In this document: one piece after another, positions 7,169-63,730 of the stretch
How positions within the stretch are numbered: the stretch's first letter is position 1
Layout of the letters: each line of letters starts with the position of its first letter
DNA from: Aristolochia californica
Lineage: Eukaryota > Streptophyta > Magnoliopsida > Piperales > Aristolochiaceae
Length of the DNA stretch: 64,000 nucleotides
NCBI GenBank assembly: GCA_029961685.1
Contig: JARWKL010000003.1
Span: 15,560,231 to 15,624,230, forward strand
Direction of reading: 5' to 3'
Made by a program: the position numbers and the translations under genes
The notes under the pieces: model-generated
The model's database searches: none
The model's input: the letters and a program-made list of their open reading frames with translations, nothing else
Told to the model about the DNA's origin: nothing

Positions 7169-7252
7169 TGTTACAATGTGGGACCAACCATTGTTGCACG
7201 AGCTAGTGGGACCCACCATGAGAACGTAAGATGACATGATGAATCATCACAC

Positions 7253-18464: not shown

Positions 18465-18469
18465 TCTGC

Positions 18470-19770: not shown

Positions 19771-19779
19771 TTCTGGATG

Positions 19780-21480: not shown

Positions 21481-21499
21481 TTTACCGCCTTGTTGATCC

Positions 21500-22871
21500 C
21501 GTAGCTAGGGACTTTCTCCCCATTGGCCACTAAAATCATGGTTGTAGCATGTGGAAGGATTTGTAACTGAAGATGTTGAGCAGCAGTTAAAATAAGAAAA
21601 TTGTGTGTACTTCCCGATCCACGAGTCCCACAAGTTCTTGGTCGAGAACTTGAGCCCTAACTTGTATAGTTTTGGTAGATTTCTGCCCAGTAATAGCATG
21701 CAAAGAAATTGTTGGTGGTTCCTCCTCAATAATATCATCAGTATCATCTGTATCCTCTGTTTCATCCACTTCAAGCCAAAACAACCTTTTACATTGGTGA
21801 CCTGCCCGGTACTGTTCATCACAGTTGTAGCATAGATTCTTGGTCCTTTGTTCCGCCATCTCAGCACTTGTCAATTTTTTTATATACTAAGGTCGAGGAT
21901 TAGTAGAGCTCGTGTCGGATGCCAAAGTAGTACTCGGATTGTTTCTCAGGGGAGGTAATGCTGGATGTGGCACCTGAGGAGAAGTATTTCGTCGCCCTTG
22001 CCAAGTGGAGGAAGTGTTCTATTACCCTTGCAAAATAGGCCTACGATGTTGCAGTCGTTGTCGTTGTTCCATTGCTCGAGCTAAATTCATTGCCCGAGCC
22101 AAATCTGAAGGGGAATGAAGTTCCACCTCTAACCTTAGAGATTCATTGAGGCCTACTATAAATAAGTGGACCTGCTAGTCGACTCGTACCAACCGGCCAG
22201 TGTGAGCCAATTTTTCTTGGAACTCTGATACAGTTCAACATACCCGGTCTATCTCAACAAAACCAAATCTCCCAAGGGGTTGATGTAGGCGGGGGACAAA
22301 TCTAATTATACATAATTCTTTAAATTCATCCCAATCCAGCACCAAACTTTCTAGTTCCACCTGGTGAAACCATAGTTGTGCCTCCTCTAACATATGGAAG
22401 GAGGCAAGTGCCACCTTATCAAACTCAGTAGTTCCTTGATTGAAAAAAAAATTCTTGCATCTATGCAACCAAATTAAGGGGTCTACTGACCCATTCAAAG
22501 TAAGAAAGTCTAATTTGGTGTACCTGGGTATTGTGCCTCCATTCTATGGTACCTGGACAACAGTGCGCCCAGCCAACTACTCCCCTCTTCGGCTGTGCAA
22601 ATGAGTCACCCCCTCTTGGCTCTGGACTAGATTGTCTCTCTACCATTAGAATAGAAAACATGTGATTCATTCGATTGAGTTTCGCTTCAATACCAGAAAT
22701 TTTTTCCAATTGTGGTTGTGCTGCAGCCAAGTTATCTTCTATCCTTTTCATCCTAATTTGAAGTTCTTCATTGTTGGATGTATCGCCCATGTTACCCGGC
22801 TCTGATACCATGTTTCTATGGTCCCTAGCCATGGATCTAGTAACTCGGTAAGGGACTTGAGAATCCAGCAC
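21500..22871 (-). pseudogene. gag: gypsy-I gag, zinc knuckle and protease (broken)
   Basis: The frame opens inside the LTR (VTRSMARDHRNMVSEPGNMG) and reads through the primer site, then gag continues with DPLIWLHRCKNFFFNQGTTE and AEAQLWFHQVELE-like sequence with stops. The knuckle region LCYNCDEQYRAGHQCKRLFW lies at about 21780-21850. The protease site is damaged: LVDREVHTIFLF, a frameshifted form of LVDSGSTHNFL, at about 21600-21640. Confidence 0.78.
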
Positions 22872-23682
22872 TGTAAGTGAGTGGCTGTACTCGGTAAGGT
22901 CAGGTAATGATAACCCTTTCTTGGTCTGGTCTCGGTCAAGAGGAAAGCAACCACTTTTGTGAGACTAGTATGCTGCTCGGTAGGGGGCAGGGGACCCTAT
23001 GCTGCTGCTACTCGGATTGGAAGGGGAAAGGGTTCCCCTTCTTGGTCACAGAAAAGAGGGTTTGATCCCTCCTTGCTACTACTCATGTTAGGGTTGAAAC
23101 CCCTAACTTGGACAGCCCTTAGGCCTATGGTTAGGAACTCCCTTGGCTTCTTGTTGATCTTGATGCTGGAAAAGAAACCTAATTTGGGGTTGTTCGTGGT
23201 ATGATGATGGAAAGGCCTCATTTCCTGCTCGGAAAGAGATGGAGAATCCTTCTCTTGCTGCTTATGATGGAAAGGAGGCTGAAGCCTCTGGGTGAAGTCG
23301 TAAAAGGGACAGAAACTCCCTTGTCTTCCTTGAGATGGATCAATGGAATAGCAATCAAAGAGATGGTAGAAGGATATTCAGATTCTAAGGGAACCTGGAC
23401 GTAGAGTTCATCAAGGAGACCTCCAATCCCTAAAGCGCGTCAAGGAGAACTCCAAACCCTGTTTACCTAATTCAAGATTTGCCCTTTTCTCATTCTATTG
23501 CCCCCTAAGTAGGCTTGACGTCCCCCCAGTTTTAGGGTTAAACATTACAATTCTGCCCCTATGGTAATTTAACTTAAATAATGAATGAAAATCGAATTTA
23601 AAACAATATGGAAAGAAACTATTAAATCTGTAACTCAATGCACCTCCGTTGTATGACTCGGTTAGCTATTGAGTCCACAACA
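22811..23682 (-). repeat. 5' LTR of gypsy-I
   Basis: The minus-strand end TAGGGACCATAGAAACA adjoins the primer site at 22810. It encodes the first gag codons (see gag entry). Confidence 0.88.
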
Positions 23683-25890
23683 TGCTTCAGGTATGCTATC
23701 TGCCTCATCTTCATCCTGGATAATTAACTCAGGAGCCTCCGAGCATCTTACAAGTAACAGACATTTATTATATTATGTATCTTTGTATCTTACATAAGTT
23801 TCACATAAGGATCCATCTTCAATTCTTGGTAATAAATCTCCTTACTCTATATTGTTACCAAATGATGATCCGTTTTCACTGCCCTTGAAAATATTCGGGT
23901 GTCAATGTTTTGTCCATATTTCATCCCCAAAACACAGTAAACTTGATCCTAAATCTATCTAGTGTATCTTTCTAGGATACTCTCATACACAACAGGTTTA
24001 TGTTTGTTATAATCTCACTCTTCAAAGTTTACTTGTGTCCAGGGATGTCACATTGTTTGAAGACTCTCCATACTATTCTGACTATGCAACTCCAGGTTTA
24101 TCTTTAGTACCAGGTTCTCCTCGACCAGTTGTGCCCCGTGGTACAGAAACTTCTCAGCCCCCAGAAACACCAGTTGACACCACACCTACTGAGTTTACAG
24201 ATCCCATCGAAGTAAGTCCATCTTCTCCAGTTGTTTCTAGCCCACAATATGATACTCGTCCTAACGCACAAAGAAAAGAACCCAGATCATGCACCATACC
24301 CTCTACGTCTCATCCCATATCAAAATTTGTGATTCATCATCGTCTGTCCCCTGCATGTTGTCAATTTCTCTCTGTTATTTCTTCCATATATGTACCACAG
24401 TCCTATCAGGAAACTCTCAAACATCCAGGGTGGAAGGCAACAATAGATGAAGAAATGCAGCCCCTTTATGAAAATCAGACATGGGCTCTAGTCCAACTTC
24501 CATTAGATAAGAAACTTGTCGGTTGTAAATGGGTGTTTACTGTGAAACACAATCCGGATGGGTCTAAGGCTCAGCTAAAGGCTCGCCTCATGGCTAAGGG
24601 CTATACACAATATTATGGAATTGATTATGTGGAAACCTTCTCTCTAGTGGCAAAAATGAACCCGGTACGTGTGTTATTATCTCTAGTAGCTAACTCTTCC
24701 TAGCAGGTACTACTTGAAGTGAAAAATGCCTTTCAGAATGGGGACATCAAAGAAGAAATTTATATGCAACAATCACCTGAGTATGTGGTTGAGGGGGAGT
24801 CAGTATGTCAACTAAAAAAATCTATGTATGGTCTAAATCAATCCCCTCATGCATGGTTTGAGAAATTTAGTCAAGCCCTCAAACGGGCAGGATTTTACAA
24901 ATGCTCTGGAGATCACTCATTTTTTTATTAAAAACACACCTAGAGGCAAGGTAATTATGGCAATATATGTTGATGATATCATTTTAACTGGTAGTGATTC
25001 TGAGGGCATCAAGGAAACAAAAGAAAAAATATGTGTTAAATTCAAGACAAAGGATCTTGGACTACTCAAGTATTTTCTGGGTATTGAAGTATTACAATCC
25101 AGACATGGGATTGTATTATCCCAAAGGAAGTATGCCCTTGATCTACTAGAGGAGACAGGACTGCTGGGATGCAAACCAGCAGACACTTTTATGGACTCAA
25201 ATACAAAATTATGTGAAGGTACTAGAGAATAAGTAGATATCGGGAAATATCAGAGACTAGTATGAAGACTTATTTACCTATGTGTAACAACACTAGATAT
25301 ATCATATGCAGTAAGTGTGGTGAGTCAGTACATGCACAAACCACAACTTATTCATTAGAAAGCACTTGAAGAGCTCCGGGAAGAGGGTTTCTCTATAAAA
25401 ATCATGGTCACTTCAACATCAAAGGATTCTCAGATGCAGACTGGGCCGGATCCCCGGATGACAGGAAATCTACTTCATGATTTTCTACGATGGTTGGAGG
25501 GAATTTGCTTACATGGAGAAGCAAGAAGAAAAATGTAGTAGTATAGTTTAGTGCAAAAGCAGAATATAGAGCCATGGCACATACTGTTAGTAAACTCCTA
25601 TGGATAAGATCTCTTCTCACTGAATTGGGATTCTACGAAGAAGCTTCGATGGATCTATATTGTGATAGTCAAGCAGCTATACACATTACATTGAATCTAG
25701 TCTTCCATGAAAGAACAAAGCATATTGAAGTGGACTACCATTTTATACGAGAAAAGTTCCAAGCGGCTCTTTCATCTCAAAAGCATGTATCATCACAAAG
25801 TTAAGTTCCAGATATTCTCCCCAAGCCGGTCACTCACAAGATTATGTCTACCATCTGCACAGCAAGTTGGGCATCTATGATGTTTTCTCA
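23683..25890 (+). pseudogene. copia-4 protease remnant, RT and RNase H
   Basis: 23683-23790 resumes the protease (INSGASEHLTS; the catalytic Asp is Asn). A deletion at about 23805 then jumps to the region after integrase (LGNKSPYS, CQCFVHISSPKHSKLDPK), so the integrase core is gone. RT is fairly open: ETLKHPGWKATIDEEMQ, CKWVFTVKHNPDGSKAQLKARLMAKG, a stop at about 24702, KKSMYGLNQSPHAWFEKF, a frameshift near 24925 and the intact YVDDIILTGSD box at about 24966. RNase H from 25255 has many stops but retains the region before the polypurine tract. Confidence 0.78.
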
Positions 25891-32288: not shown

Positions 32289-32290
32289 AA

Positions 32291-32706
32291 TGATGGTCCA
32301 TCAAATAGGTCGTCCTCTTAGAAAAAGGTGACAACCTGTAGTAGAATACTCCCTGCGACAATCTACTGCTCTGATACCATGTAAAAATCCAGATTTGGGT
32401 GAAAGAAGAGGAGAAATTTGAGAAAATTGCAGAAAGGAAAAGAAGACTTCTGAAGAGTCTAAAAGGCTTTGTTGGGAACTGTGCACAAATCCGCAAACTT
32501 CTTTAATAGGTTTTTTTGAGTTAGCAATTATCAAAATGCCCTTGTACATTTAATAATCCTTAATCTCCTTATATCTCCCTAACTACATATCTTATGTATA
32601 TGAAAATTTAACAAATAATATATATTAGAATGAAAAACATGATTACATAAAGAAATTAACCACTGAAGTGGTAAAATAACCAAAATACCCCTAGATGTAC
32701 TTTCTA
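32291..32706 (-). repeat. Continuation of the ~600-bp array unit broken at 7168
   Basis: Begins TGATGGTCCATCAAATAGGTC, exactly where the unit at 7168 (CCATTTGGA) stopped. It contains the primer-like motif (complement TGGTATCAGAGCAGTAGAT near 32365-32383), the GTTGGGAACTGTGCAC block and the anchor near 32547, and ends within CCCCTAGATGTACTTTC at about 32706. Confidence 0.85.
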
Positions 32707-37696: not shown

Positions 37697-39040
37697 TTAG
37701 AAGGCATTGCGTCTGAGAAGATTGGTTAATGGGGCTGAGAGAGGTGCATAATTGTGGATGATTTTTTTATAATACCCTGCTAATCCCAAAAATCCCCGTA
37801 ATGCAGAAATAGTTCTCGGCTGTGACCACTGGATGATAGCAGAGATTTCTCCCGGATCTACTCCCTGTGGAGGTAATGACATGCCCTAGGTAAGCTACTT
37901 GAGAGCGCCCAAATGAACACTTGGAGCGTTTTAAACAAATATGATGGGTTCTTATCAATGTGAACACCACCCGCAGATGTTGTAAATGTTGCTCCCATGA
38001 CTTGTTGTGGATCAAGATATCATAAAAAAATACCAACACAAATTTTTTGAGATAAGTGCTAAATACATCGCTCATAAGTGCTTGGAATGTTGAGGGAGCA
38101 TTGGACAATCTGAACGGCATGACAACGAACTCAAAATGGCCATGATGAGTACGAAAAGTTGTTTTCGGTATATTCGAAGGATACATTCGGACCCCGGTGA
38201 TACCCCGAACGCAAGTCCAACTTGGTGAAAAGTTGAGCTCCATTTAGTTCATCTAATAATTCATTCACTATTGGGATAGGAAATTTATCCTTGACTGTCT
38301 TGGCATTTAGTTCCCGGTAGTCCACACAAAATCTCCAAGTATTATTCTGTTTCTTGACCAATAGCATGGGAGATGAGAAAGGAGATGTACTGTGTCGGAT
38401 GAGACCCTGCTCCAGCATGAGGTGACATTGGCATTCAATTTCATCCTTTTGAATGTGGGGGTATTGGTATGGCCATACTACTACCACCTCTTATCCCATC
38501 TTCAAACAAATTATGTGGTCACATTGGCGCAATGGGGGAAGAGAGACTGGTTCCTGAAAGATGTCGTTAATTCTGCCAGTAAATTCTCTAGAGTAGTAGG
38601 TTGCTGCTGAAGGGCATGGAACAGTGAAGGATTCTGAACTTGGCGACCCTGTAAGGTGACATTTTTGCCCTCCAATTCAAAGGACATGGTTAACGCAGCA
38701 AAATCCCATATGATAGGTCCCAACCTTTGTAGCCACTTAATTCCCAATACCATATCAAACCCAGCAAGTGGAATAATAAAAAACTCTGCTAAAAATGTGT
38801 TACCTGCAATGGTGAACATAATGGGCTGGCTGGTTCCATAACTGGGAACTTTGTCTCCATTAGCCACTGAGACTAAAGCTATTGGTCGAGGTTGGATGGG
38901 AAGCTATAAATATTTGGCAACGTTGAAACTCAAAAAATTATGAGTGTTGCCCGAGTCCACCAAACTGAGTAGCGGTTGCTCACTGATTGAGGCACACACT
39001 TGCATCGTAGTAGTGGACTGGAGACCTGTAATGGCGTGGT
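37697..39040 (-). pseudogene. gypsy-E protease and reverse transcriptase (broken)
   Basis: The protease site LVDSGNTHNFLSFNVAKYL lies near 38950; GFDMVLGIKWLQRLGPI follows. RT blocks: [68 protein letters not shown], a frameshift, then [20 protein letters not shown] and VFFYDILIHNKS with Tyr for the first catalytic Asp. It ends in GFLGLAGYYKKIIHNY; most of RNase H is missing. The left side is cut at 39040 by element G. Confidence 0.8.
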
Positions 39041-39569
39041 GTTATGCACGCAATAACATTATTATTTTAGTGTTTTCTTTAATTTACTTTATTTTATTTC
39101 AGTTTTAGGTCATAGGGGTATTTTTGAAATATTTTATTTATAGGGGTATTTTTAGAATATTTTATTGTAAACCCTAACCGGGTGAACCCTATTTAAGGGG
39201 TAAGACTAATTTTAGGTCATAGGGGTATTTTAGGAATATTTTATTTATAGGGGTATTTTTAGAATATTTTATTGTAAACCCTAACCAGGTGAACCCTATT
39301 TAAGGGTTAAGACTAATGAGAAATACAAGCATTCAAATATTAAGAATTAGGTTAAATTTAGCGTAAGAGGCTTAGAGTTCTCCTCAACGAGCTCTAGGGT
39401 ATCAAGCTTCCCTTTGGCTTGATCTTCGTTTTCGTCTTTCCCATGTCTTCCTACTACCCCTATGGTAATGCTTGGAATACCCGTAACCCGTGGCAGACCC
39501 CAGATCCTCCCAAAGAATCCATGTGTCAGATCCGGGACCGTAACAACTGGTATCAGAGCAGGAACACAA

Positions 39570-39829
39570 TGGGTTATTCTATATCCCAAGAAAGATGGGT
39601 TACTATGGGTAAGGAATTGGAGAAAATGCGAGCACGGTTTGATGCTTCAATTGAATGTTTGGAAATGGAGCCACGTGCACCCACAAAAAAGGTCATACGA
39701 CCTGAAATTTCCGCTTACGGCATATGCGTAGGCATATGCGTAGAAGAGGCAGCTGGGTCCTCGGACGAGCAGAAAGGCCAACGGCCAGGAACTCCAGCGG
39801 CGACGACATCAGAATTTGGGGATTCCTAA
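39570..39829 (+). pseudogene. Short gag-like frame of element G
   Basis: An open frame continues from the LTR across the primer site (RDRNNWYQSRNTMGYSIS) and on to KELEKMRARFDASIECLE, which resembles the N-terminal coiled region of chromovirus gag. It stops at 39829. Role not known; possibly retained because RNA-packaging signals overlap it. Confidence 0.55.
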
Positions 39830-40560
39830 ATTCCAAAAATGGTTGCACTGGAAATTCTGACGGCACTCGAAATCTCCGAGCAAGCGTAGAACTTCCGATA
39901 TGCCTCCAAGGGCTACGATTCGCCTCCAAGTGGTGCGATTTGCCGCCGGAGTAGCAGGCGACCCAGTCGCGTCCCTCGGGTTCGTCGGCAAACTACCAGA
40001 GAGCCCTCTGTCTCGGAAAAATTCCAAGCGGCGACGCCTCAACGGGCTTCTCGCCGCCACCGGCGAAGCAGGATAGTTCGTCGGTGCCATAAGCAACTTT
40101 TCCGCAAGGGATCTCGGTTCCGGGAGGCTGAGGAACGACAATTCACAAGTTTCCGAGACCCCTCTGTCTCGGAAACTATCCAGGTGGCGAAGCCCCGACG
40201 GGCTGCGATTCGCCATCGGAAAATCATGCGATTCCGTCGGTGCCGGGAGAGAGGAAGGAGACGCCCGTCGCCAGACTTCATCGGTATCGTGAGGAATGGA
40301 ACTACCTACCGCAGAGTTCGGAAGCTGCCGAAGGAAGAAGACGACTCCCAATTAAATTTTCCTAACTTAGGAAAATTTAATCAGCCCGGTCCGCTGAGTC
40401 GCAAGCCGGACCGGGTTCCTGAACCGGGTCAACCCAGGTTAACTCTGACCGTCCCAAAAAAAAAAAAAAAAAAGAGGAAGCGGGCAAACAGAGGGGGCGT
40501 CATAGCTTTCGCGGATGCTACTTCAGCACTGGTGAAGACGTCGGCATACAGACACTACTT
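39830..40560. other. GC-rich cargo of element G
   Basis: The base composition is clearly richer in GC than the AT-rich surroundings, with CCTCTGTCTCGGAAA occurring twice (39999-40020 and 40160-40180), each followed by similar GGCGACGCCTCAACGGG / GGCGAAGCCCCGACGGG text, so an imperfect internal repeat of roughly 160-170 bases is present. A 180-codon frame lies on the minus strand (39809-40351), but I do not recognise it. Origin (host capture or element-own spacer) is unresolved. Confidence 0.5.
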
Positions 40561-41003
40561 CCGAGCTTGAGGACAAGCTCGTTTTCCAAGGGGGTGTAAT
40601 GTTATGCACGCAATAACATTATTATTTTAGTGTTTTCTTTAATTTACTTTATTTTATTTCAGTTTTAGGTCATAGGGGTATTTTTGGAATATTTTATTTA
40701 TAGGGGTATTTTTAGAATATTTTATTGTAAACCCTAACCAGGTGAACCCTATTTAAGGGGTAAGACTAATGAGAAATACAAGCATTGAAGCATTTAGAAT
40801 TAGGTTAAATTTAGCGTAAGAGGGTTAGAGTTCTCCTCAACGAGCTCTAGGGTATCAAGCTTCCCTTTGGCTTGATCTTCATTTTCGTCTTCCCCATGTC
40901 TTCCTACTACCCCTATGGTAATGCTTGGAAGACCCGTAACCCGTGGCAGACCCCAGATCCTCCCAAAGAATCCACGTGCCAGATCCGGGACCGTAACACG
41001 TGG

Positions 41004-41933
41004 AGGGAAATTTCTTGTTCCTCCACTTGTGGCTCTTCTTCCTCTAGAACTTCTTCTCCTTCATCAGTAACTTCCAACCAAAATAATTTCTTGCATATAT
41101 GCCCAAATGTATATTACTCATCACAATTATAGCATAATCCCTTGGACCTTCCTTCCTCCATCTCTGCTCTATTGAGTTTCTTGATGAATGTTGGTTGAGA
41201 AGGATTTGGTTTAGGGCCTTGAGGAGTACTCGAACTAATAGTGTTGTGCCATGGTGGTGTTGTGTTATGGGTGGCTATTGTCGGTCTGCCTCCCTGCCAT
41301 AGAGGACTTCGTGCCTGGAATCTTTGCTTGGCCTCTAGTGCTCTGGTTAAATTCATTGCTCTACTTCTAGGCGGAGGGCCTCTGTCAAGCCGGTTGTAAA
41401 CAAGCTGACTTGCTGGCCCACCCTAACTACTTTGCTGGCCCTGGCCAATTTCTCTTGGAAGGCTTTTTGGTATTGTTCGACCGTGCCGGTTTGGAGTAGC
41501 AACACCAAGTCCCCCAGCATATTGTTTTGGGCCGAGGGACCAAACCGTATGGAGCACAAATCCTTGAATTCCTGCCAATTTAATCTGGATACTCCAATTC
41601 TAATTGATGGCCCCATAGTTGCGCTTCGTCGAGCATGTGGAAGGCGGCCAATCCCACTTTGTCACTGTCAGTAGTGCGTTGGTGACAAAAAAAATTCTCA
41701 CACATGTAGAGCCATATCAGTGGGTCTTCCGATCCATTAAAAATTGAGAATTCCAATTTGGTGTATCTCGGAATTGTCCCTCCTTCGGGACTAAAATTCC
41801 CGTATGGCACTGGAGGCTCTGTGCGTCCAGCATACTGGTGCCCTTGTCTAGGCACAGGGCTCCTTTCCCCATCCTGTGGGTTGGAGCTTCTTCCCCCAGT
41901 CATATCATATATCCTATGAGATAAATTTTCGAG
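41004..41933 (-). pseudogene. gag: gypsy-E gag (broken, second part)
   Basis: Minus-strand pieces: PRYTKLEFSIFNGSEDPLIWL, AAFHMLDEAQLWGHQLELE (41580-41939), a frameshift, FKDLCSIRFGPSAQNNMLGDLVLL and EQYQKAFQEKLARASK (41353-41616), then EAKQRFQARSPLWQGGRP and the knuckle start GLCYNCDE (41114-41356). The gag N-terminal part lies at 48054-48300, beyond gypsy-F. Element G cuts it at 40999. Confidence 0.78.
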
Positions 41934-42730
41934 TAACACAGCGTGGGAGTTGTGAATCCAGCACTGTTACTGAGTTGCTGGATTCGGTAAGGAGGGTTAA
42001 AGGTCCCTTCTTTGGGTACTCTTCCACCAGTGATCAGTCTCCCTTTTTATGATCTCATTCTAGAGCTAAAGTTGTAGCTAGAATGGAAGTAATTCAGGTG
42101 GAGAAAGAATGGAGAAATACTTATTTTGCTCACGTTAATCAAGGTTTTAACCCTGATTTGATGCAGCTCATTCTAGGACTTGAAGACCTAGCTTGATGGG
42201 GCAGCCTTGGCTCACGTTGATGGCTGTCCTTGCTCTATTTTCGTGATGAATTCCTAGCAAGAAGAGTTTCTCTAACCCTTCACGTGAAAGAACCAGAATT
42301 ACTCCTCTTTTGCTGCTCGTCAAGAGGGGATTGAACCCAACTTCTTGTTGACGCTGGTGATGAGAGAAGATCCTCTCTTTAGGCTCAAAAAAGGGGCAGG
42401 AAGCTCCTTTTCTTAGTATGGATGATGAGGGATGAATTTAGGAGAAGAAGGATGGCAATGGAGGGTGAAGGATAGGTTGGATTTTTGGAGTAAACCCTAA
42501 ACTCGAGATCAAGAGGTGATCTCAACCTATTTAGACTAGGTTATTCTAAAATCTCAAAGCTTACCTATTTCATTCATACATTTCCCTTAAATAGGTCACG
42601 TCAAGGACTTTTAGGGTTAGGGTTACAATAATTCCCCATAATGCCCTTACATATAAAGTAATTAGAAATAAATCCTACTTAAAACAATATAAGAAATAAA
42701 TCCTACTCAAAGAAATATAAGAATTAAATC

Positions 42731-44069
42731 CTATTGAGTGAGTTGTTGTTGTCTTCTTCGTTGTGTGACTCGGTGTGCTATTGAGTCCACAACATCTGCC
42801 TCCCCATGGAGAAAGAGCTTGTCCTCAAGCTCAAAAGCTGGGTAGACTTGTTTGAAGATGTCCACACGTTCCCATGTTGCAGCGTCGGGGTCAGTGTCCG
42901 TCCATTGGACGAGAATCTCCCAATGGTCATTGGTCAGCCGTGCGCGTAACACCGCAGCAGGGTTAAGAATAACCTCGCCATGATCAACCGGTGGTAGGAA
43001 TGGAGTGGATGTAGGCTGCGCTCTGGAATGCGGCTTCAAAAGAGAGACATGAAACACATCATGAATTCTAGCTGTGTCCAGTAATTTGAGTTGATAGGCG
43101 ACTGGTCCCACGCGTCCAAGAATGGAAAACGGCCCAAAAAATCTAGGTGAGAGCTTATGATGCGGAGGTCCCGCAAGAGACTGCTGACAGTAGGGCTGGA
43201 GCCGTAGCCACACATACTTCCCAACCTCAAAAGAGACCTCACGGTGGCCTCTATCGTATACATCCTTCATCCGAGCTTGGGCGCATCGTAGCCGTTATGT
43301 GATATTCTGTAGCAGCAGATCCCTGTCTATGAGTGCCTGATCAATCGTGTCCACGCGGGTGGACCCTGGGTTGTACGAGAGGAGGCGAGGTGGATCCCGG
43401 CCATATATAACCCGAAAAGGAGTGGATTGCAATGCAGAGTGGAACGAAGTGATGTAACAGTATTCGGCCCATGGAAGCCATTGAACCCATTGTCGCGGAC
43501 GATCCCCCACCAAGCACCGTAGATACATCTCGATGGTAAAGTTCACCACCTCAGACTGCCCGTCTATCTGTGGATGATTGGCGGAGGAGAACTTCAATTT
43601 CGTCCCACTCAAGCGAAACAGTTCTCGCCAAAAGGTGCTTGTGAAAACTGCATCTCTGTCACTCACAATGGATTCTAGAATGCCATGTAAGCGGACTATC
43701 TACTCCAAGAAAGTTTGAGCAACCCGTGTTGCAGTATACGGATGAGCCATTGGTATAAAATGCCCTTACTTGGAGAATCGATCAACCACTACAAAAAAGT
43801 ACGGATTTGCAGGCTGACAGGGGTAAGCCTTCCACAAAATCCATTGAAATGTAGGCCCAAACCTGCGTAGGAAGGGCCAGAGGCTGGAGAAAACCGGCTG
43901 GACTCAAGTGCTCGGCTTTGTTGCGCTGGCATACCTGACAGTTGCCCACATAAGTCGCAATAGAGGGTTTCATGGCTTGACAGTAAAAATCAGCTCGAAT
44001 TTTGTGCAAGGTCTTTTGGATCCCCTCGTGTGTACTGTCATGGTAGGCCGAGAGAATAGCTGGAATCAA
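42731..44069 (-). pseudogene. gypsy-F integrase and chromodomain
   Basis: The HHCC region YHDSTHEGIQKTLHKIR and CQVCQRNKAEHLSPAGFL (43782-44069) is followed by DFVEGLPLSACKS, a break, SDRDAVFTSTFWREL and HPQIDGQSEVVN (43295-43666), keeping D and E of the triad. The C-terminal part and chromodomain form one 179-codon frame (42731-43270): KLSPRFFGPFSILGRVG, WEILVQWTDTDPDAATWE, ELEDKLFLHGEADVVDSIA, ending inside the LTR. Confidence 0.8.
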
Positions 44070-44346
44070 CTCGGACTCAAGTGGAAGGAAAATATGCTGC
44101 TTTTAATAAATAAGTGAATCTTGGATTGACCACTTTACATTCATTGTCCCTTATGAGATCTACTGATGTAGTACCTGCAGTGCAGGGTTAGTGGCATGTG
44201 CTTCTCGCACCAAGTCCATAATGAGAAATCTCGGTTGGCTGATAGAATAGACCGACTGCTGATCTTCAAAACACTATGACAAGGCATCTGCCACCTTATT
44301 TAATCTCCTTGCATGTTACTCCATCGAGAAGTCAAACCCCAACAAC

Positions 44347-45666
44347 TTACTGATCTAGTGTTGTTGTGGCGACATCGTCAAACACTGTTCTAGTAGGAAT
44401 TTTGAGGCTATAGTGATCCGTGCGTATGAGAAAAGCCCGGCCCCAGAGATAAGGCCTCCAATGTTGGACCGCTTTGGCCAACCCAATCAATTCGCACTCA
44501 TAGGCTGCCAACTTGTGATGGCGAACTGTCAACTGTCTGCTAAAATTCACAATAGGATGGCCCAGCTGCTATAAAACGGCCCCCATGCCCACGCCCGAAG
44601 CGTCGCACTCTACCACGAACAATTCGTCGAAGTTGGGAAGTTGTAATACTGGCGCGGATGCGAGGGAAGCTTTGAGTGCCACAAACGATGTGGTGGCCCC
44701 CTCATTCCAAATAAAGGAATTTTTCTTGAGTAAACTCGTCAATGGTGCTGCCACTGGCCCATAGTTCTGAATAAATTTGCGATAGTAGCCCACAAGACCC
44801 AAAAAACGCCGTAATGCAGAACACGACTGTGGTTGCGGCCACTCGTGAATAGCTCAAATCTTCTCGGGATCCACCGTAACCCCCTCATGTGAGATAATGT
44901 GACCAAGATATCCCACATGTGAAGCCGCAAAAGAACACTTGGAATGTTTCAAATAGAGCTGATGTGCTCTTAACAAGTCGAAAAAAATCCTCAAGTGTGC
45001 CAAGTGTTCCTCAACCGACTTGCTATATATCAAAATATCATAAAAAAATACAAGAACAAATTTTCGAAGATAGGGGCTAAATACCTTGTTCATCAAAGCT
45101 TGAAAAGTGGAGGGTGCATTGGATAACCCGAACAGCATGACGACAAACTCAAAGTGGCCATGGTGAGTATGGAACGCCATCTTCTCGATATCAGAGGGGT
45201 GCATCCGGACCTGATGGTATCCCGAACGGAGGTCAAGTTAAGTGAATAACCATGACCCATGTAACTCATCCAAAAGCTCATACACTACCGGAATCGGGAA
45301 CTTGTCTTTTACTGTCTGCACTTTCAACTCCCGATAATCCTCGCAGAACCTCCATGTCCCATCATGTTTCTTCACAAGTAAGACGGGTGAAGAGAATGGG
45401 GAGCGGCTGGGACGAATAAGACCCTGTTTCAACATCTCATGGCACTGACGCTCTATCTCGTCCTTCTGAAGGTGTGGGTAACGGTATGGTCGCACGACCA
45501 CTACCTCTGAACCTGGTTTCAGACAGATCCTGTGGTCACAGTGCCTCATGGGAGGCAACACCGAAGGCTCCTGGAAGAGGTCAGAGAACTCCTCAACCAG
45601 ACCATAACTAGTACTGTCAGGCTGATCCTGTGTCTGCAAAGTGTGTATGCGGTGGGCCCTGTCCAC
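44347..45666 (-). pseudogene. gypsy-F reverse transcriptase and RNase H
   Basis: [60 protein letters not shown] (45238-45666), a frameshift, [18 protein letters not shown] and [12 protein letters not shown] with Tyr for the first catalytic Asp (44854-45204). RNase H: VGYYRKFIQNYGPVAAPLTS, ECDASGVGMGAVL (44569-44802), ELIGLAKAVQHWRPYLWGRA and RTDHYSLK (44347-44550). Confidence 0.82.
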
Positions 45667-45770
45667 CTGACAGCCCTATAAGAGCACCCGACTTCCGGCC
45701 AAATAAAAGCTCATGGTTAAATCCGAAAAGTCCCACAGAATGGGTCCCAACGTTTGTAACCATTTAATGC

Positions 45771-47230
45771 CTAAAACCATATCAAATCCCGCCAGTGGAA
45801 TAACAAAAAATTCCGCATTAAATGAAGTAAATCCAATGGAAAAGTTACCGCCTTACTAATCCCATAGCTAGGGACCTTCTCGCCATTGGCCACTGAGACG
45901 GTGGTTGTCGGATGAGTGTGTATCTGGAGCTGGAGATGTTGTGCGGCTGTCAAACTCAGAAAATTGTGTGTACTCCTCGAGTCGACTAGTCCCACCAGTT
46001 CGCGGTCGATGACATGAGCTCGGACTTGCATTGTAGTAGGTGATTTTTGCCCAGTATAGCATGCAAGGATATCTCTGGTGGTTCCTCTTCGATAATATCC
46101 TCTAGTTCCTCTGGATCCTCTGAATCCTCCATCTCGAGCCAAAACAATCTTTTACATTGGTGTCCGACCCGATACTGCTCATCGCAGTTATAACAGAGAT
46201 TTTTGGACCACCTTTCTGTCATCTCCGCACTCATCAATTTTTTTATAAAGCTCGGTAGGGAATTGCCAAGGCGGGGATCGGCTACCTAAGTCGTAGTCGG
46301 AGTGTGTCTGGATGGTGCTGCTATAGATGCTCCCTGAGATGAATTATAGCGGCACCCTTGCCACGTGGAGGAAGTGTTCCTCTCACTTGACCAATCCGAC
46401 TTACGTTGCTGCAGTTGTAGTAGTTGTTCCATTGCTCAGGCCATATTCATGGCATGAGCTAGATCCGTAGGCATAAGGAGTTCTACCTCTAGCCGTAAAT
46501 ACTCATTGAGACCTGATGTGAATAAGAAGACCTGCTGGTCAACCAATACCCTCTCCCCAGCACGAGCCAACTTTTCCTGGAATAGTTTCTGATATTGTTC
46601 CACTGAACCCGTTTGTCTCAATAGGACTAACTCTCCCAAGGGGTTGCTGTTGGCGGGAGGCCCAAATCTAACTGTGCATAGATTTTTAAATTCTCCCCAT
46701 GTCATTCCCGGTCTCTCTTTCTCTACTTGAGTCACCCATAACATGGCTTCTTCTGTCATATGGAAAGAGGCTAGTTGCACCTTATCCCATTCAGTAGTCC
46801 CTTGGTTCAAAAAAAAAAAATTCACATCTATGCAACCAAATTATGGGATCCACAGAACCATTGAAAGAGGGAAACTCTAACTTGGTCTACCTTGGGATTG
46901 TACCTCCATGCTGAGGTGCTTGGACAGCAGTGCGCCCAGGCCACTGCTCCCCTCTTCTATGATATGGTTGAGCAACCTCTCTCACCTATGGACTCTAATG
47001 TCTCTCTGTCCTCAACTCCTGTAGCATGCTAATGATATAATTCAACCACAAACCTTTCCCAACACTGGTTGTGCTGTTTCAAGGCTATCTTCTATCTTTT
47101 GTATCCTGATTTGGATTTCTTCATTGCTGATATAATTCCCCATGTTACCCTGCTCTGATACCAAGTTGTTACGGTCCCGGGTCATGGATCGAGTAACACG
47201 GCGTGGGAGTTGTGAATCCAGCACTGTTAC
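45771..47230 (-). pseudogene. gag: gypsy-F gag, zinc knuckle and protease
   Basis: The frame opens within the LTR (RVTRSMTRDRNNLVSEQGNMG), reads through the primer site and continues EEIQIRIQKIEDSLE. After breaks, gag core 46436-46825 shows WGEFKNLCTVRFGPPAN and EQYQKLFQEKLARAGE. The knuckle LCYNCDEQYRVGHQCKRLFW is at about 46130-46200. The protease reads LVDSRSTHNFLSLTAAQHLQ (DSG changed to DSR) near 45960. Confidence 0.8.
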
Positions 47231-48053
47231 TGAGTTGCTGGATTCGGTAAGGAGGGTTAAAGGTCCCTTCTTTGGGTACTCTTCCACCAGTGATCAGTCT
47301 CCCTTTTTATGATCTCATTCTAGTGCTAAAGTTGTAGCTAGAATGGAAGTAATTCAGGTGGAGAAAGAATGGAGAAATTCCTGTTTTGCTCACGTTAATC
47401 AGGGTTTCAACCCTGATTTGATGCAGCTCATTCTATGACTTGAAGACCTAGCTTGATGAGTCAGCCTTGGCTCACATTGGTGGCTGTCCTTGCTCTATTT
47501 TCGTGATGAATTCCCAGCAAGAAGAGTTTCTCTAACCCTTCACGTGAAAGAACCAGAATTACTCCTCTTTTGCTGCTTGTCAAGAGGGGATTGAACCCAA
47601 CTTCTTGTTGACGCTGGTGATGAGAGAAGATCCTCTCTTTGGGCTCGGAAAAGGGGAAGGAAGCTCCTTTTCTTAGTATGGATGATGAGGGATGAATTTA
47701 GGTGAAGATGGATGGCAATGGAGGGTGAAGGATAGGTTGGATTTTTGGAGTAAACCCTAAACATGAGATCAAGAGGTGATCTCACCCTGTTTAGACTAGG
47801 TTATTCTAAAATCTCAAAGCTTACCTATTTCATTCATACCTTTCCCTTAAATAGGTCACGTCAAGGAGTTTAGGGTTAGGGTTACAATAATTCCCCATAA
47901 TGCCCTTACATATAAAGTAATTAGAAATAACTCCTACTTAAAACAATATAAGAAATAAATCCTACTCAAAGAAATATAAGAATTAAATCCTATTGAGTGA
48001 GTTGTTGTTGTCTTCTTCGTTGTGTGACTCGGTGTGCTATTGAGTCCACAACA
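47167..48053 (-). repeat. 5' LTR of gypsy-F
   Basis: The minus strand starts TGTTGTGGACTCAATAGCAC and ends GACCGTAACA, three bases before the primer site. TATA-like ATTTAAGGGAAAGG is present in the middle. It also encodes the first gag residues. Confidence 0.87.
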
Positions 48054-48300
48054 TGTGGGTTGGAACTTCTTCCCCTAGTCATATCATATAGCCTATGAGA
48101 TAAATTTTCGATTTGTACATGTACCTATTGGGCCACCCTACTGTCCAGCAATGTAACCAAACGTTCTTCAGATTCTTCTTGCCATGCTGCTGCTCTTGCG
48201 TCACTCTGTTCTCTCTCATCATGTTGCATTTCTTTGATACTTGGTAGCAACTCGGCATTGTTGGATGATTCTCATATACTAACCTACTTTAATACCAACG
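48054..48300 (-). pseudogene. gag: gypsy-E gag, N-terminal part
   Basis: Continues from the LTR-coded ITRSMVRDHNTLVLK through the primer site and meets a stop at once; further fragments resemble a gag coiled region. It joins to 41930 once gypsy-F is removed. Confidence 0.6.
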
Positions 48301-57909: not shown

Positions 57910-58142
57910 GTAATCAAGTCCACAAAAATATACGCATTATCCCCTTAGCAATTTTGTCTCTTATCATTGTTACTCACCAGAATATTACTCTTATACTGTT
58001 GTTGTCAGTCAAGATATTGAGTCTACATCTTATACAAAAGCAGGTTCGCATTCCCATTGGCAAGAAGCAATTCAATCTAAATTGGCCGCTTTAGAAGCTA
58101 ACTACACTTGGTTCCTCACTTTTGTTCCTCATAGTAAGAAAC
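57910..58142 (+). pseudogene. copia-D RT, first part
   Basis: HSHWQEAIQSKLAALEANYTW and VPHSKK are the usual start of copia RT. It is cut at 58142 by element H; the frame continues KPIDCRWVYKIK at 62303. Confidence 0.85.
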
Positions 58143-58554
58143 GGTTACAGTCTTAGATCTTACACGGCGATTTGTAAGGATGAAGAATAGAAGAAAGAAA
58201 ATCAAGTCGAAGGGAAGCTTGAAAACCATAGGTTCGTTAAGGAGAATGCACACCCTCGAGCTCATTTAGGAAAACTCAAACCCTTTGTTTAACCCAAATT
58301 CAGACTTCCTTCTTTCCATTCTATTTCCCCTCTAAATAGGGTTCATGCCCACAAGGTTCAAGAGAAAATTACAATTTTTCCCCTCCACGGCATTTAACTT
58401 GAAAAGTAAAAGGTTCAAGGTAAACCTATAGATTTGCCCTTCCACGACATTTAACTTGGAAAGTAACTTAATGACTCAGTAACTGACTCAGCCAAAGTAA
58501 TTGACTCAGCCACGGCATCGTTGCATGACTTGGCCTGCTATTGGGTTCATAACA
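58143..58554 (-). repeat. 3' LTR of element H
   Basis: On the minus strand starts TGTTATGAACCCAATAGC and ends GACTGTAACC (terminal A mutated). Same length as the partner, with scattered substitutions. Confidence 0.88.
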
Positions 58555-58649
58555 TTACACACCCCTAGAGAACGAGCTTGTCCTCAAGCTCGAAGGTAGG
58601 AATACATATCGAAACGTCTCCACCCTTCCCAATTAGCAACTGTGGTAGC

Positions 58650-59960
58650 TATGTCAATTCAACTGCTTAAGTTGTCTCATGTAATGCACTTGCAATGTCT
58701 CTGGACCTATAAATGTGTTACCCTTTCCTGGTAAATGATCCATATTCTGGATGGAGCAAGCAAGTGATTGTGGAGGATGCATGGGTGGCATCCTATTTCC
58801 AAACCCCCTTGGATGCCTCGGAATCGAAACATTATTGGCAGTAAGAGCAGATGTGGATCCCATAGTTGAACATGACCCTGATTGAGGTGTCTGACGTGTT
58901 TCCACATCACTAGAAGAACTCCCATGGGGAGTAATGTGATTACCAGATGGAGAAGATGATGCACCATTCTGGTGTTTTGCTAATTGAGCTCATGGCTGAT
59001 GTGGGCATGTTGTCTCATTTAGCTTTTGCATAGCAACAATCGTAGATTTCCAAAGTGGTAGGAGTTGGGCAATTCGATTGGCATTGGCAGGAGAAGAGAT
59101 ATCAATATGATTCTCCAATGCCCATGCCTGCAGTGCTTGCAATTGAACCACATCAAACTGGGCATTGCCAAGGTTTTGTATGCCTGGAGGGCCATGTGGT
59201 ACTTGCAAGGGGGGTCTCATCATATTTGCTTGAGGGGTCTAAGTTCATTTGTCCAGCCTTGATCCATCAGCTTCTCACGACCAAAATGATCAGTAGGCTT
59301 CTTATAATTGGATCGTTGCCCCTGATTGGCGGCTAGGAGAAACATGAGCTCTTGCATCTTAAGATTGTGCATACACCTGTCCTGATACTTCGCAGATGGG
59401 CCCAGCATTCTTCCTTGAGTCTGTTGTTGTAGTGCATTTCCCTGAACCTTCTGCTGAGTAGCCTGAAAAGCATACTATAGGTAGGCCTAACGAACTGCAG
59501 CCTGAGCATGTTGTTCTGGCCCTGAAACCTTATTCTAGTTCTCCTCACGAAACTGAGAAGATCCCTGTTGTGGAGACAAATCCATAAATTTCCTTCATTG
59601 TTGAGGGAATACTGCTGAGTAGCCTGAAAAGCATACTATAGGTAGGCCTAACGAACTGCAGCCTGAGCATGTTGTTCTGGCCCTGAAACCTTATTCTAGT
59701 TCTCCTCACGAAACTGAGAAGATCCCTGTTGTAGAGACAAATCCATAAATTTCCTTCATTGTTGAGGGAATACAGTAGCTTCGGATGATGAAGGAAAGCC
59801 ACCAGTACCACCGATAACTCCATGGAGTTCGATTCTGTGACAGAAGAAAAGTGAGTTGTTGTTGCTGTTTCTGTATCACCTGAAGTTGTTCCTTATCAAT
59901 AGCATCTATCGAATACAGTAGCTCATGATGCTGCTTCCTCACATGAAGTGTTGGATTTTG
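58650..59960 (-). pseudogene. BRM-like: Captured BRAHMA (BRM) N-terminal fragment
   Basis: Read on the minus strand, peptides occur in the order known from plant BRM, the SWI2/SNF2 ATPase of SWI/SNF remodelling complexes: a Gln run, FPQQ-stop-RKFMDL, YAFQATQQKVQGNAL, LGPSAKYQD, LKMQELMFLLAANQ, DHFGREKLMDQG, MMRPPLQVPHG, LQALQAWALENHIDISSPAN, GNRMPPMHPPQS and GPETLQVHYMRQLKQLN. This covers the Gln-rich and QLQ-upstream part, not the helicase. Stops, a frameshift near 59220 and a 161-bp duplication make it non-functional. Assignment rests on remembered family sequence and was not searched. Confidence 0.8.
59451..59772 (-). repeat. 161-bp tandem duplication in the BRM-like fragment
   Basis: CTGCTGAGTAGCCTGAAAAG starts at 59451 and again at 59612, and the two 161-base copies are nearly identical (for example GTTGTGGAG versus GTTGTAGAG). 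Confidence 0.9.
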
Positions 59961-59989
59961 AATATCTTGACTAACGTCATACGCCTCTT

Positions 59990-60850
59990 CAAGGACAGGA
60001 TATTGGTGTCCAAACAAGCAGTAACCTAATCAAAAGTGAGGATTCGTTTTCCCTTTAACATCCCCATAAGTTCTGGTATTACAACAGATGCTTCTAAATT
60101 CATCCCAAGATGAGTCTTTGTACTACTCCAAATCCTCTTTTCCAATTCCTCAATTCCATGTATAATTTCGTGCTTATGGCTGTTATCATTAGAATCCGTA
60201 GTGTCACAGAATGGAGGAGAACTGACAAGAGATGTTTGTTCATGATGGCTCACTTGTCTATGCCGTGTTGAACAATCTTTGCCTTGAGGGGTCTCTGACC
60301 AAAAGGTTAGTGACACATGGGAATCCGTGTAACTTGTGGAAGCACCTTCAGTGTCATAACAAACAGAAGATAGAAATCCCAATCTCCCCGAGCTATCAAC
60401 TTCACTATCATTTCTATGCTCCCAAAAGCTTGGAGGCCTTTCAGGAAGCTCCCCATCCCGATGGCATGGAAAATAGGAATATCATCCTTGTTTCCGCATA
60501 AGAAGGATAGCTCAGGCGAGGTCAAACAAACTGCATCTACAGCAGGACTACTTGTCGTCCCCCTCCCCCCCTTAGCTTTTTAGTGTTACTCGTAGTTTCA
60601 GATCCCACATTTTTGCCAAAATCCAAACTCCCATCATGCAAATTATTCAGGGACTTCAATTGAAAAATATTGGTATCAAAAGCAGAATCCATGTTCTCGT
60701 AGGTGTTTGTCATGTTTTCAATAAAATAGACAGTCCTTACCTCTTGTGATATATAATGTAACTTGCACGTTGGACCTTTCAACTTGAATTCCACTTATCT
60801 TGACAAACATGAACTGCACATAACCTTCAGCAACAATGAATTCATCTCCT
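59990..60850 (-). other. Unassigned probable cargo of element H
   Basis: Minus-strand open pieces (60026-60382: GIEELEKRIWSSTKTHLGM, IPELMGMLKGKRILTFD; 60307-60525: SFLCGNKDDIPIFHAIG, VKLIARGDWDFYLL; around 60800: DEFIVAEGYVQFMFVKISG followed by a possible splice donor AG-GTAAGG) look protein-like but are broken. I do not recognise them. They could be further captured host exons, possibly with an intron. Confidence 0.45.
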
Positions 60851-61870
60851 AGACACGGAGGGTAGGCATCTCATTTAATCTTAATTCATACTTATGTTGA
60901 CCAGCATTCTAGAATGGAGTACGCACTACCATAAATTTTTTATGTCGAGTGATTTAACCCACACCACCATCAAGGGCCTCATCCTATTATGGTAATTTTC
61001 GATCGAAAATCACTATTCTTGAAGTGTCTTCTTCCGTCAAGGCCACAATCTCCACTGCAAAATCAATTATTTTGGGTTTTTGTTCTTTCCTGTTTCCAAC
61101 ACCACCGTCGCCGAGAAGAACTACCCTAGGAAGCTTTCTCCGACGGCGAATAATAGAGGCATCTAGCTGGAATTTGTCATGGAGCTTCTCGGCTCGGGAA
61201 TTTCCAGTCTCCCCGACTCTGGATTTCGGCTCAAGATTTTCACACTCAGAGGAGTTAGGTCAACCCTCTGCTGGACGGCCAAACTGATTCGCTGAGACAG
61301 AGGTAGCTCGGACACGCCGAAATGATTTGTCGCGATAGAGGCCCCACGGTGGGCGCCATTTCCATTTTTCCAATGTTCGATCCTCTTTGTAGTCTACCTG
61401 TTCCCGACGGCGAACAACAGCAAGTCGGAGCTGAAATTTCGAATAGGGTTGTCACTTGTCAACGACTTGTGAAACATAATGGGGTTGTGCCGAGGAACCT
61501 AGAGGTTGGCCAAACTATTTCACCGAGATAGAACCCGATCGGAATTTTTTTGTCTTTTGTTCTAGGAGACGTTCTGCTAGCCGTGAGGTCTCAATTTCTG
61601 GAAGAAGGTTAGGTTTCCTTTAACAAGGGAGATTTGAGGTCGAACCCAAATCTGGTTGTACCGATGCGATTTGAGGTTAAACGACAAGCAACAACTGTTC
61701 ATGGGCATTCCGGGACGGCAACCTTCCTCTATGAATTTTTTTTACAACACTTCTTGAATTCCAGCAATCTATCTTCTATGTTAATGGAAGACTGAAGTAG
61801 CATTGCTGAGAACTCTTCGCGCAGTATTGCATACATTTTGTCTATGATCCACAAATCGCTCATTGTGTTT
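60851..61870 (-). other. 5' region of element H interior, GC-richer segment
   Basis: Next to the primer site a short frame starts MSDLWIIDKMYAILREEF and stops after about 45 codons, resembling a truncated gag start as in element G. Between about 61080 and 61450 the sequence is richer in GC (GAAGCTTTCTCCGACGGCG, TCTGTCTCAGCG) and recalls the cargo of element G. No identifiable gene. Confidence 0.45.
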
Positions 61871-61887
61871 CTACTCTTATACCATGT

Positions 61888-62299
61888 TGTTACGGTCTTG
61901 GATCTAACACGGCGATTCGTAAGGAAGAAGAAAGAAGAAATAAAATCAAGCCGAAGGGAAACTTGAAAACCCTAGGTTCATTAAGGAGAACGCACACCCT
62001 CGAGCACGTTTATGAGAACTCAAACCCTCTGTTTAACCTAAAATCAGCTTTCCTTCTTTCCATTCCATTTCCCCTCTAAATAGGGTTCATGCCCACAAGG
62101 TTCAAGAGAAAACTACATTTTTGCCTCTCCACGACATTTAACTTGAAAAGCAAAAGCTTCAAGGGAAAATTACAGATTTGCTCCTCCATGGCATTTAACT
62201 TGGAAAGCAAACTTAATGACTCAATAACTGACTCAACTAGAGTAATTGACTCAACCATGGTGTCGCTACATGACTCGACCTGCTATTGGGTTCATATCA
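61888..62299 (-). repeat. 5' LTR of element H
   Basis: 412 bp; the minus-strand end AAGACCGTAACA lies three bases before the degenerate primer site. Confidence 0.88.
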
Positions 62300-63730
62300 G
62301 AAACCTATCGATTGTCGTTGGGTTTATAAAATCAAACAGCACTTAGATGGTACTATTGAGTGTTTCAAAGCTCATTGGGTTGTGAAAGGTTACACACAAT
62401 TGGAAGGTATATATTACTATGAAACTTTTTCTCCCACTCCTAAAATGGTTATTGTTCGTTATTTATTGGATATAGCAGCCGCCCAGAATTGGTCTCTTCA
62501 CCAACTTGATGTCAACAATGTTTTTCTTAATGGTAGTCTTCATGAAGAAATTTATATCTCCACCTTCTGGTCTTTGGCGACATGGAGAAAATCTTATGTA
62601 TCGCCTTCACAAGTGGTTATATGGCTTAAAACAAGCTTCCCGATAATGGTTTGCCAAGTTCTCTATACCTATTGAAGTTGTTGGGTTTGTTCAATCCAAA
62701 GCCGATTACTCATTATTCACATATCATAAAGGAGTATCTTTTACAGCCTTGTTGATATATATTGATGACATTCTTATTACGGGTAATGATGTCAATGCCA
62801 TATTAAAAATTTCTGCATAGTCATTTTCAGATTAAAGATTTGGGTGATTTGAAGTATTTTTTTGGTTATTGAAGTTTCTCAGTCAAATAAATGTATTTCT
62901 ATCTCACAAGAAAAATATACTTTAGAGATTTAAAAGATGGGGGATTTTTGGGTGCTAAACCTGTGAACTTTCCCATGGAACAAAACATAAAGCTTTCGAA
63001 TTCAGGAGAATTGCTTAACGATCCATCTCAGTATAGACGACTTGTTGGACGCCTAATTTATTTGACTATCACCCGACTGGATATTACCTATTTGGTCAAT
63101 GAGTTAAGCAGATTCATGCATGCACCACACAAGAAAATTGATTTGCGCCTATTGCGTTATTTAAAAAGCAGCCCAAGACAAGGTTTGTTTTTCCCTTCTC
63201 AAAATGATTTATCCTTGCGAGCTTTTTCATATTCGGATTGGGCTGGTTGTCCAATATCTCGTAGATCCCGGATTGGGTTGGTTGTCCAATATCTCGTAGA
63301 TCCACTACGGGTGATTGTGTTTTTTTGGGATCTTCTCTTATTTCCTAGAGGACAAAAAGGCCGAAAACCGTATCTCTTTCCTTAGATAAGCCAAATATAG
63401 AGTCATGATAGGTACTTGTGAATTATCATGGCTATGGTCATTATTGATAGATTTGAGAATATTACAACCGAAGTCAGCACTGTTCTATTGTGATAACATA
63501 GTTGCCTTCACATAGCAGCTAATCCCATTTTTCATGCATTTTTCATGAAAGAACCATACATATAGAGATAGATTGTCATTTTATTCTTGACAAAATACCA
63601 GATGGTTAGGTTGTAACCAAATATGTTGCTTCGACAAATCAGCTTGTGGATGTGTTCACCAAGCGACTGGGAAAGGAAGTCTTCTCAACTATGATAAGCA
63701 AGTTGGGAGTTCTTGACATTCATTCTCCAA
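62300..63730 (+). pseudogene. copia-D RT (second part) and RNase H
   Basis: RT resumes KPIDCRWVYKIKQHLDGTIE and continues YYYETFSPTPKMVIVRYLL, HQLDVNNVFLNGSLHEEIY, a frameshift, and the catalytic box [11 protein letters not shown] at about 62758. RNase H shows YRRLVGRLIYLTITRLDITY and YSDWAGCPISRRS; a 35-bp tandem duplication (about 63236-63305) follows and then stops. Late pieces (TCELSWLWSLL, LFYCDNIVA, VDVFTKRLGKEVF) reach the polypurine tract. Confidence 0.82.

Follow-up and report, generated by a model that had tools for sequence, protein, structure and literature searches.

How do pieces of different host genes come to lie between the long terminal repeats (LTRs) of one mobile element? 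The question is raised by element H, found in a 64 kb stretch of the Aristolochia californica genome (C221:15560231–15624230, here called the window), which carries one fragment of a BRM (BRAHMA)-like chromatin-remodeller gene and another of a DNA-repair gene, that for BRCA1-associated RING domain protein 1 (BARD1). The same genome was searched for copies. A sequence-only reading of the window had proposed an LTR element with a captured piece of BRM; the BRM fragment does lie within one inserted unit, but the BARD1 fragment (60826–59959) had been overlooked. We propose, with a probability of roughly 0.85, that a non-autonomous family of the Ty3/gypsy type took up host mRNAs serially by template switching of reverse transcriptase and was then amplified.

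Element H arrived as a single unit

H is bounded by the matched 412 bp LTRs (58143–58554 and 61888–62299) and the perfect 5 bp GAAAC duplication that the sequence-only reading had described. Excision of H together with one GAAAC restores an open copia reverse transcriptase frame, ..VPHSKKPIDCRWVYKIKQHLDGTIECFKAHWVVKGY... The restored frame and the perfect target-site duplication (TSD) show that both LTRs and the whole interior arrived together. H is thus a single-unit insertion into a copia reverse transcriptase gene, and separate insertions of the two LTRs, raised earlier as a possibility, are excluded. The primer-binding site TGGTATAAGAGT adjoins the right LTR (61884 downwards), whereas a pol tail and a purine-rich stretch (58555–58652) adjoin the left; both are on the minus strand. 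H is therefore oriented on the minus strand, and its BRM and BARD1 pieces share the sense orientation of the element. The antisense effect on BRM that had been envisaged does not follow from the element's own transcript, which is not antisense to BRM. We take the primer-binding site to be of the initiator-tRNA-Met type; a relative in the window has TGGTATCAGAGC at this place, compared with TGGTATAAGAGT in H.

The statement that H has no pol holds for a complete pol. A tblastn comparison of 84 open reading frame segments with the rest of the window found only a tail of ∼ 100 bp, which can be aligned with the terminal part of pol in other window elements, E42 among them. The integrase end of E42 matches the Pfam families SH3_Tf2-1 (5e-21) and Integrase_p58_C (2e-6). 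H is a non-autonomous LTR retrotransposon of the Ty3/gypsy type. A narrower assignment of the pol tail to the chromodomain type was dropped, since Pfam did not support it (Chromo on the E42 end, E 0.073 and 13.4 bits, where the cut-off is 25.1); further weak Pfam matches were taken as chance. Between the two LTRs of H, 411 aligned sites show 51 differences, of which 36 are transitions and 15 are transversions (Kimura two-parameter distance 0.138). At the grass rate of 1.3e-8 substitutions per site and year, which may not hold for this plant, this corresponds to about 5 million years. The left LTR starts with GG rather than TG.

Two host genes as sources of the cargo

The BRM-like peptides noted earlier on the minus strand were confirmed with plant homologues and with an exon from the same genome. 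A protein search gave three matches among 1908 candidates (47, 41 and 38% identical). When these three plant homologues were compared with the window by tblastn, they matched the minus strand with E values of 5e-65, 3e-49 and 1e-46 unfiltered, and of 7e-55, 2e-13 and 7e-18 with the composition filter on. All three matches end in a QLQ motif, which scores over the Pfam cut-off in two cases and 0.1 bit under it in the third. Within the genome, an exon at C500:38.245 Mb (BRM-A, L030) is 93% identical to window positions 59827–59612 and 91% identical to 59610–58653; the corresponding values for a second gene at C13:2.334 Mb (BRM-B, L034) are 89% and 84%. BRM had been called single-copy, and this does not stand: BRM-A and BRM-B are 90% identical to each other in the captured exon, and SNF2 exon pieces lie 4–13 kb downstream of both. 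The BRM-A exon ends in a QLQ domain (26.6 bits, cut-off 23.8). The gene name BRM is in part our assumption, and no named full-length BRM was retrieved; PDB searches with the BRM pieces gave nothing above chance.

The predicted extent of the BRM fragment (58600–60100) overlaps the true one and is slightly wide. By our reading, the BRM-A exon begins 69 bp ahead of the captured part, and it extends beyond the far end; at that end, the fragment gives way to the pol tail over a few bases. Since both the homologues and the parent place the whole stretch within one exon, missing introns are uninformative for BRM, and the intron test that had been suggested as proof of an RNA origin was set aside for this fragment. 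BARD1 supplies that test instead. The BRM fragment also contains a 161 bp tandem duplication, not noted in the sequence-only reading, with copies (59451–59611 and 59612–59772) that are 99% identical. Because of this high identity, and because it was not seen in the sister copies S2_22 and S478, the duplication looks younger than the insertion of H, although an assembly error is possible.

A stitched translation of the region upstream of BRM gave one match among 1951 candidates (E = 6e-109, 70% identity). The matched protein, P0004, is BARD1 of A. californica; a search confined to shorter proteins gave no match among 179. P0004 corresponds to the gene at C1:48.8756–48.8807 Mb, with an identity of 100% in four blocks and 99.1% in the last, and lower values where the alignments entered introns. 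This source gene has RING, PHD-like and BRCT domains and P0004 as its named homologue. H carries residues ∼ 45–293 and ∼ 580–616 of it (60826–60075 and 60070–59959). At the exact splice points the copy lacks the parent introns of 75, 124 and 599 bp and, in the BRCT part, one of ∼ 0.9 kb. The intron at residue 47/48 is missing as well, and in H the sequence VMCSSCLSR runs through this position uninterrupted. The loss of five introns in total, each at its exact splice points, shows that the template was spliced RNA. Three of the introns were checked across the copies: six copies run through all of them unbroken, and two further copies extend 6 and 12 bases beyond the third. Comparison with a sister copy, S39 (C221:39.235 Mb), shows that H lacks the N-terminus of BARD1; residues 14–44, which a frameshift-tolerant alignment had placed in H, were withdrawn, as S39 identifies this region as sequence upstream of the start codon.

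The intron data bear directly on whether genomic fragments were captured at the DNA level, in the manner of a Pack-MULE or Helitron, or were brought in by gene conversion. The BRM piece comes from a single exon and could, taken by itself, be of DNA origin. The five introns gone from BARD1, and a unit delimited by LTRs and a 5 bp TSD, make such a route extremely improbable for the element.

A family with changing cargo and the order of capture

H belongs to a multicopy family whose members carry the same gene pieces. In the BARD1 search, 60 of 239 candidates were scored and gave at least 72 matches in at least 41 clusters. Among them are the parent, H and, on C68, a probable paralogue of low identity; besides these three, ∼ 38 places match BARD1 among the matches listed, some of them short or of low identity. 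The BRM search (40 of 42 candidates scored) gave at least 45 matches, at least 27 of which touch the BRM part. They form at least 21 clusters, namely the two genes, H and 18 others, some again short or of low identity; 18 further matches that touch just the spacer, the BARD1 end or the tail were left out. An H-type tail or LTR was present in 23 of 27 copy stretches and in none of 13 gene stretches, some of the copy stretches being longer than the gene controls. Among the 27, L041 and L045 come from one place and S11 was chosen for the spacer. Several copies inserted separately. S478 (C478:28.889 Mb), arranged like H, is bounded by LTRs of its own and by the perfect TSD CATTA; S27 has the perfect TSD TCTTG, and that of S35 matches at four of five positions. 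Some BARD1 fragments in the genome have recurrent limits, for example residues 610–687, 238–308 and 1–109.

S39 differs from H in its cargo. It carries BARD1 residues 1–617, then the spacer, and then another gene where H has BRM. The parent of this third gene was located at C2:31.902 Mb, with a match of 92% across 251 bp. We tentatively take it to be BUB1; the element copy matched a BUB1 peptide with an E value of 0.3, the parent gave no match, and Pfam holds no BUB1 family. S39 is also adjoined by an LTR 94% identical to that of a long element in the window (41929–48057).

The sequences of S39 (CGAACTCCATGGACATTTC), BRM-A (GGCCTCCATGGAGTTATTGG) and H (CGAACTCCATGGAGTTATCGG) at the switch region have 9 nt in common, CTCCATGGA, exactly at the switch point. 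S39 follows H through CTCCATGGA and then diverges into its other gene. The BRM entry junction (59827) is common to eight of the ten sisters aligned (S2_22, S478, S27, S35, S26, S37, S2_20 and S17), with few substitutions. The other two, S22 and S18, start at 59812 and are truncated before the junction, so they are uninformative. An exact-string search that had found no junction in S2_22 and S478 is superseded by the alignment, which finds it there with substitutions.

The BRM tree comprises 15 sequences, namely 13 copies and the two genes; two short copies were excluded. The 13 copies fall into a single clade next to BRM-A (support 93), in which H groups with S2_22 (99) and S478 joins them at 95. 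In the BARD1 tree (12 copies and the parent, with five short copies dropped), H, S2_22 and S478 group with a support of 100 and S39 is their sister, also at 100. Family members with BARD1 and without BRM exist. Taken together, the shared junctions and the two trees indicate that BARD1 was captured first, and that BRM was captured later, probably once, after which the product spread.

These junctions also bear on a processed pseudogene made by the machinery of long interspersed nuclear elements that landed in an existing LTR element. An intronless BARD1 would suit such an origin. However, the BRM piece is internal to an exon and runs directly into the pol tail, the same junctions recur in copies with separate LTRs and TSDs, and no poly-A tail was apparent where BRM ends, although no dedicated search for poly-A or for an inner duplication was made. 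We regard this origin as very unlikely. Read-through transduction, in which an element beside the genes was co-transcribed with them, is a known route of capture for retrotransposons (PMC13317346, section 4). It too has very little probability here, since no H-type tail or LTR lies within the 3.3–4.0 kb stretches around BRM-A, BRM-B, BARD1 and the BUB1-like gene, and the BRM piece is internal to its exon, without gene ends.

We favour serial capture by template switching. Spliced BARD1 RNA would first have been taken up by a non-autonomous LTR element of the Ty3/gypsy type; the spacer and, in a sister line, the BUB1-like piece would have followed BARD1. Later, in one minus-strand synthesis, the polymerase would have moved from the pol tail of the element onto BRM-A RNA, and would have returned to the BARD1-bearing element RNA at the 9 nt match. 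The product would then have been copied to many sites, presumably by enzymes of related autonomous elements, and the H copy would have landed in the copia reverse transcriptase gene.

Several points weigh against this model. The BRM clade, with its support of 93, sits on a short branch (0.007), and the deepest nodes of the BARD1 tree are weak (41, 42 and 75). Four of the 27 copy stretches (S9, S32b, S2_7 and L045) lack both an H-type tail and an H-type LTR within the stretch examined, S37 showed no clear TSD, and S39 and S2_22 each gave a single H-type LTR rather than a pair. No source was found for spacer Y; two candidate parents (C111:11.586 and C68:12.815 Mb) failed because they are not clean genes. 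Finally, the copying event was not seen directly.

The places on C111 and C68 (L049, C111:11584801–11587600; L050, C68:12814001–12816800) contain pieces resembling pentatricopeptide repeat (PPR) sequences joined to spacer-Y sequence. L049 combines its PPR-like pieces (Pfam PPR, 9e-10) with an H-type tail and LTR, and may represent another gene capture.

Table 1. Coordinates of element H and its parts in the window.
Feature	Positions	Strand	Basis
Element H, non-autonomous LTR element with host gene pieces	58143–62299	-	LTR pair, TSD, restored copia reverse transcriptase frame
3' LTR (element sense), 412 bp	58143–58554	-	
5' LTR (element sense), 412 bp	61888–62299	-	
Target-site duplication GAAAC, left	58138–58142		
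Target-site duplication GAAAC, right	62300–62304		
Primer-binding site TGGTATAAGAGT	61873–61884	-	Reading and comparison with relatives in the window
5' region: gag-like start (MSDLW..) and sequence common to sister copies	60827–61872	-	
BARD1 fragment, ∼ residues 45–293 of P0004, without introns	60075–60826	-	
BARD1 BRCT fragment, ∼ residues 580–616, joined via internal deletion	59959–60070	-	
Spacer Y, also in BARD1-only sisters	59828–59958	-	
BRM fragment, inside one exon of BRM-A (C500:38.245 Mb)	58653–59827	-	
161 bp tandem duplication (two copies) in BRM fragment	59451–59772	-	
Ty3/gypsy-type pol tail (..PTFELEDKL..)	58572–58652	-	
Polypurine-tract-like stretch before 3' LTR	58555–58571	-	Authors' reading, with comparison to relatives in the window

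Elsewhere in the window, a small LTR element without pol (39040–40998) has a primer-binding site, a gag-like start and a pol tail of the same kind; in both LTR and tail it is similar to H. Two long Ty3/gypsy elements lie on the minus strand at 17595–23683 and 41929–48057, with LTRs 92% and 97% identical respectively. A tandem array at 3502–7170 consists of units of ∼ 0.6 kb that are 74–79% alike, with a further unit at 32290–32694.

Fate of the cargo and comparison with known systems

Both the BRM and the BARD1 piece of H contain stop codons and frameshifts. Across 13 copies, differences from BRM-A are about evenly spread over codon positions 1, 2 and 3 (0.094, 0.078 and 0.077); between BRM-B and BRM-A, 35, 18 and 40 differences fall at these positions. 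The values for the BARD1 copies are 0.094, 0.104 and 0.117, and their slight third-position excess could reflect weak constraint or the parent's own branch. Neither the codon-position pattern nor the stops and frameshifts in H give any sign of a kept protein. The BRM cargo thus appears to decay neutrally, and we infer that it lacks function. Recruitment of the captured pieces, as a new protein or through small RNAs that target BRM or BARD1, might be suggested by the many copies, which are 7–11% off BRM-A in the BRM part. Set against the disrupted frames of H, the even BRM pattern, BARD1 codon positions that are near even with an excess readable as weak constraint, and a cargo in sense with the element, recruitment is improbable.

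A broader interpretation is that the lineage is a habitual capturer of genes, an RNA-level counterpart of Pack-MULEs that swaps in chromatin and cell-cycle mRNAs (BARD1, BRM and the BUB1-like gene, with a PPR piece in a related element), and that small RNAs from its copies might dampen BRM or BARD1. We consider this unlikely; if it were true, the choice of cargo would perhaps reflect mRNA abundance in dividing cells where the element is active. A review (PMC7216077) reports that, in Arabidopsis, BARD1 restricts WUS expression and binds the SNF2 ATPase SYD; the meeting of functionally close genes in one element may be chance.

The acquisition of host genes by LTR elements has mostly been argued from few cases such as maize Bs1. 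In this case the parents, relatives that carry less, a sister whose cargo differs at the corresponding position and numerous subsequent copies all occur in one genome. They form a directly readable record of stepwise gene pickup, which covers the order in which genes were captured, the spliced state of the template, one point of switching and the subsequent decay. A literature search, in which subscription journals were mostly not covered, yielded no title reporting capture of BRM or BARD1 by an LTR element. To call such capture rare, as the sequence-only reading did, is too strong: the abstract of Jiang and Ramachandran (2013; PMC3726574) reports 672 LTR-captured genes in rice and 1,343 in sorghum, while section 6 gives 1,343 proteins for rice. 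As with H, those host genes lie in LTR elements with a primer-binding site and a polypurine tract, and many of the rice ones are pseudogenes. That study differs in counting annotated genes inside elements, and the parts of it available to us give no capture order or switch points.

Pack-MULEs, Pack-CACTA elements and Helitrons likewise shuffle several host gene pieces within a mobile element and amplify them (PMC13317346, section 4), but these are DNA transposons, whereas H has LTRs, a 5 bp TSD and an intronless BARD1. The same source proposes, for Veju and BARE-2, an abnormal template switch between two RNAs in one particle, similar to our model; these elements gained element or unknown sequence, whereas H gained identified host mRNAs, with a 9 nt match at one switch point. 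According to a review (PMC7264820), transduced additional open reading frames occur in one or few copies and usually in sense. In Bs1 (PMC13317346, section 4), an LTR retrotransposon, segments from three host genes lie between the LTRs. As in H they are in sense, and no full-length open reading frame was among them at capture. Bs1 later gave rise to a chimeric gene, which is both transcribed and translated. The H family carries BARD1, BRM and, in a sister, a BUB1-like gene, exchanges cargo between sisters, is present in many copies and shows no indication that a protein was retained. A family of higher copy number whose cargo is serial and exchangeable, and for which both the parents and a switch point have been identified, appears to be new.

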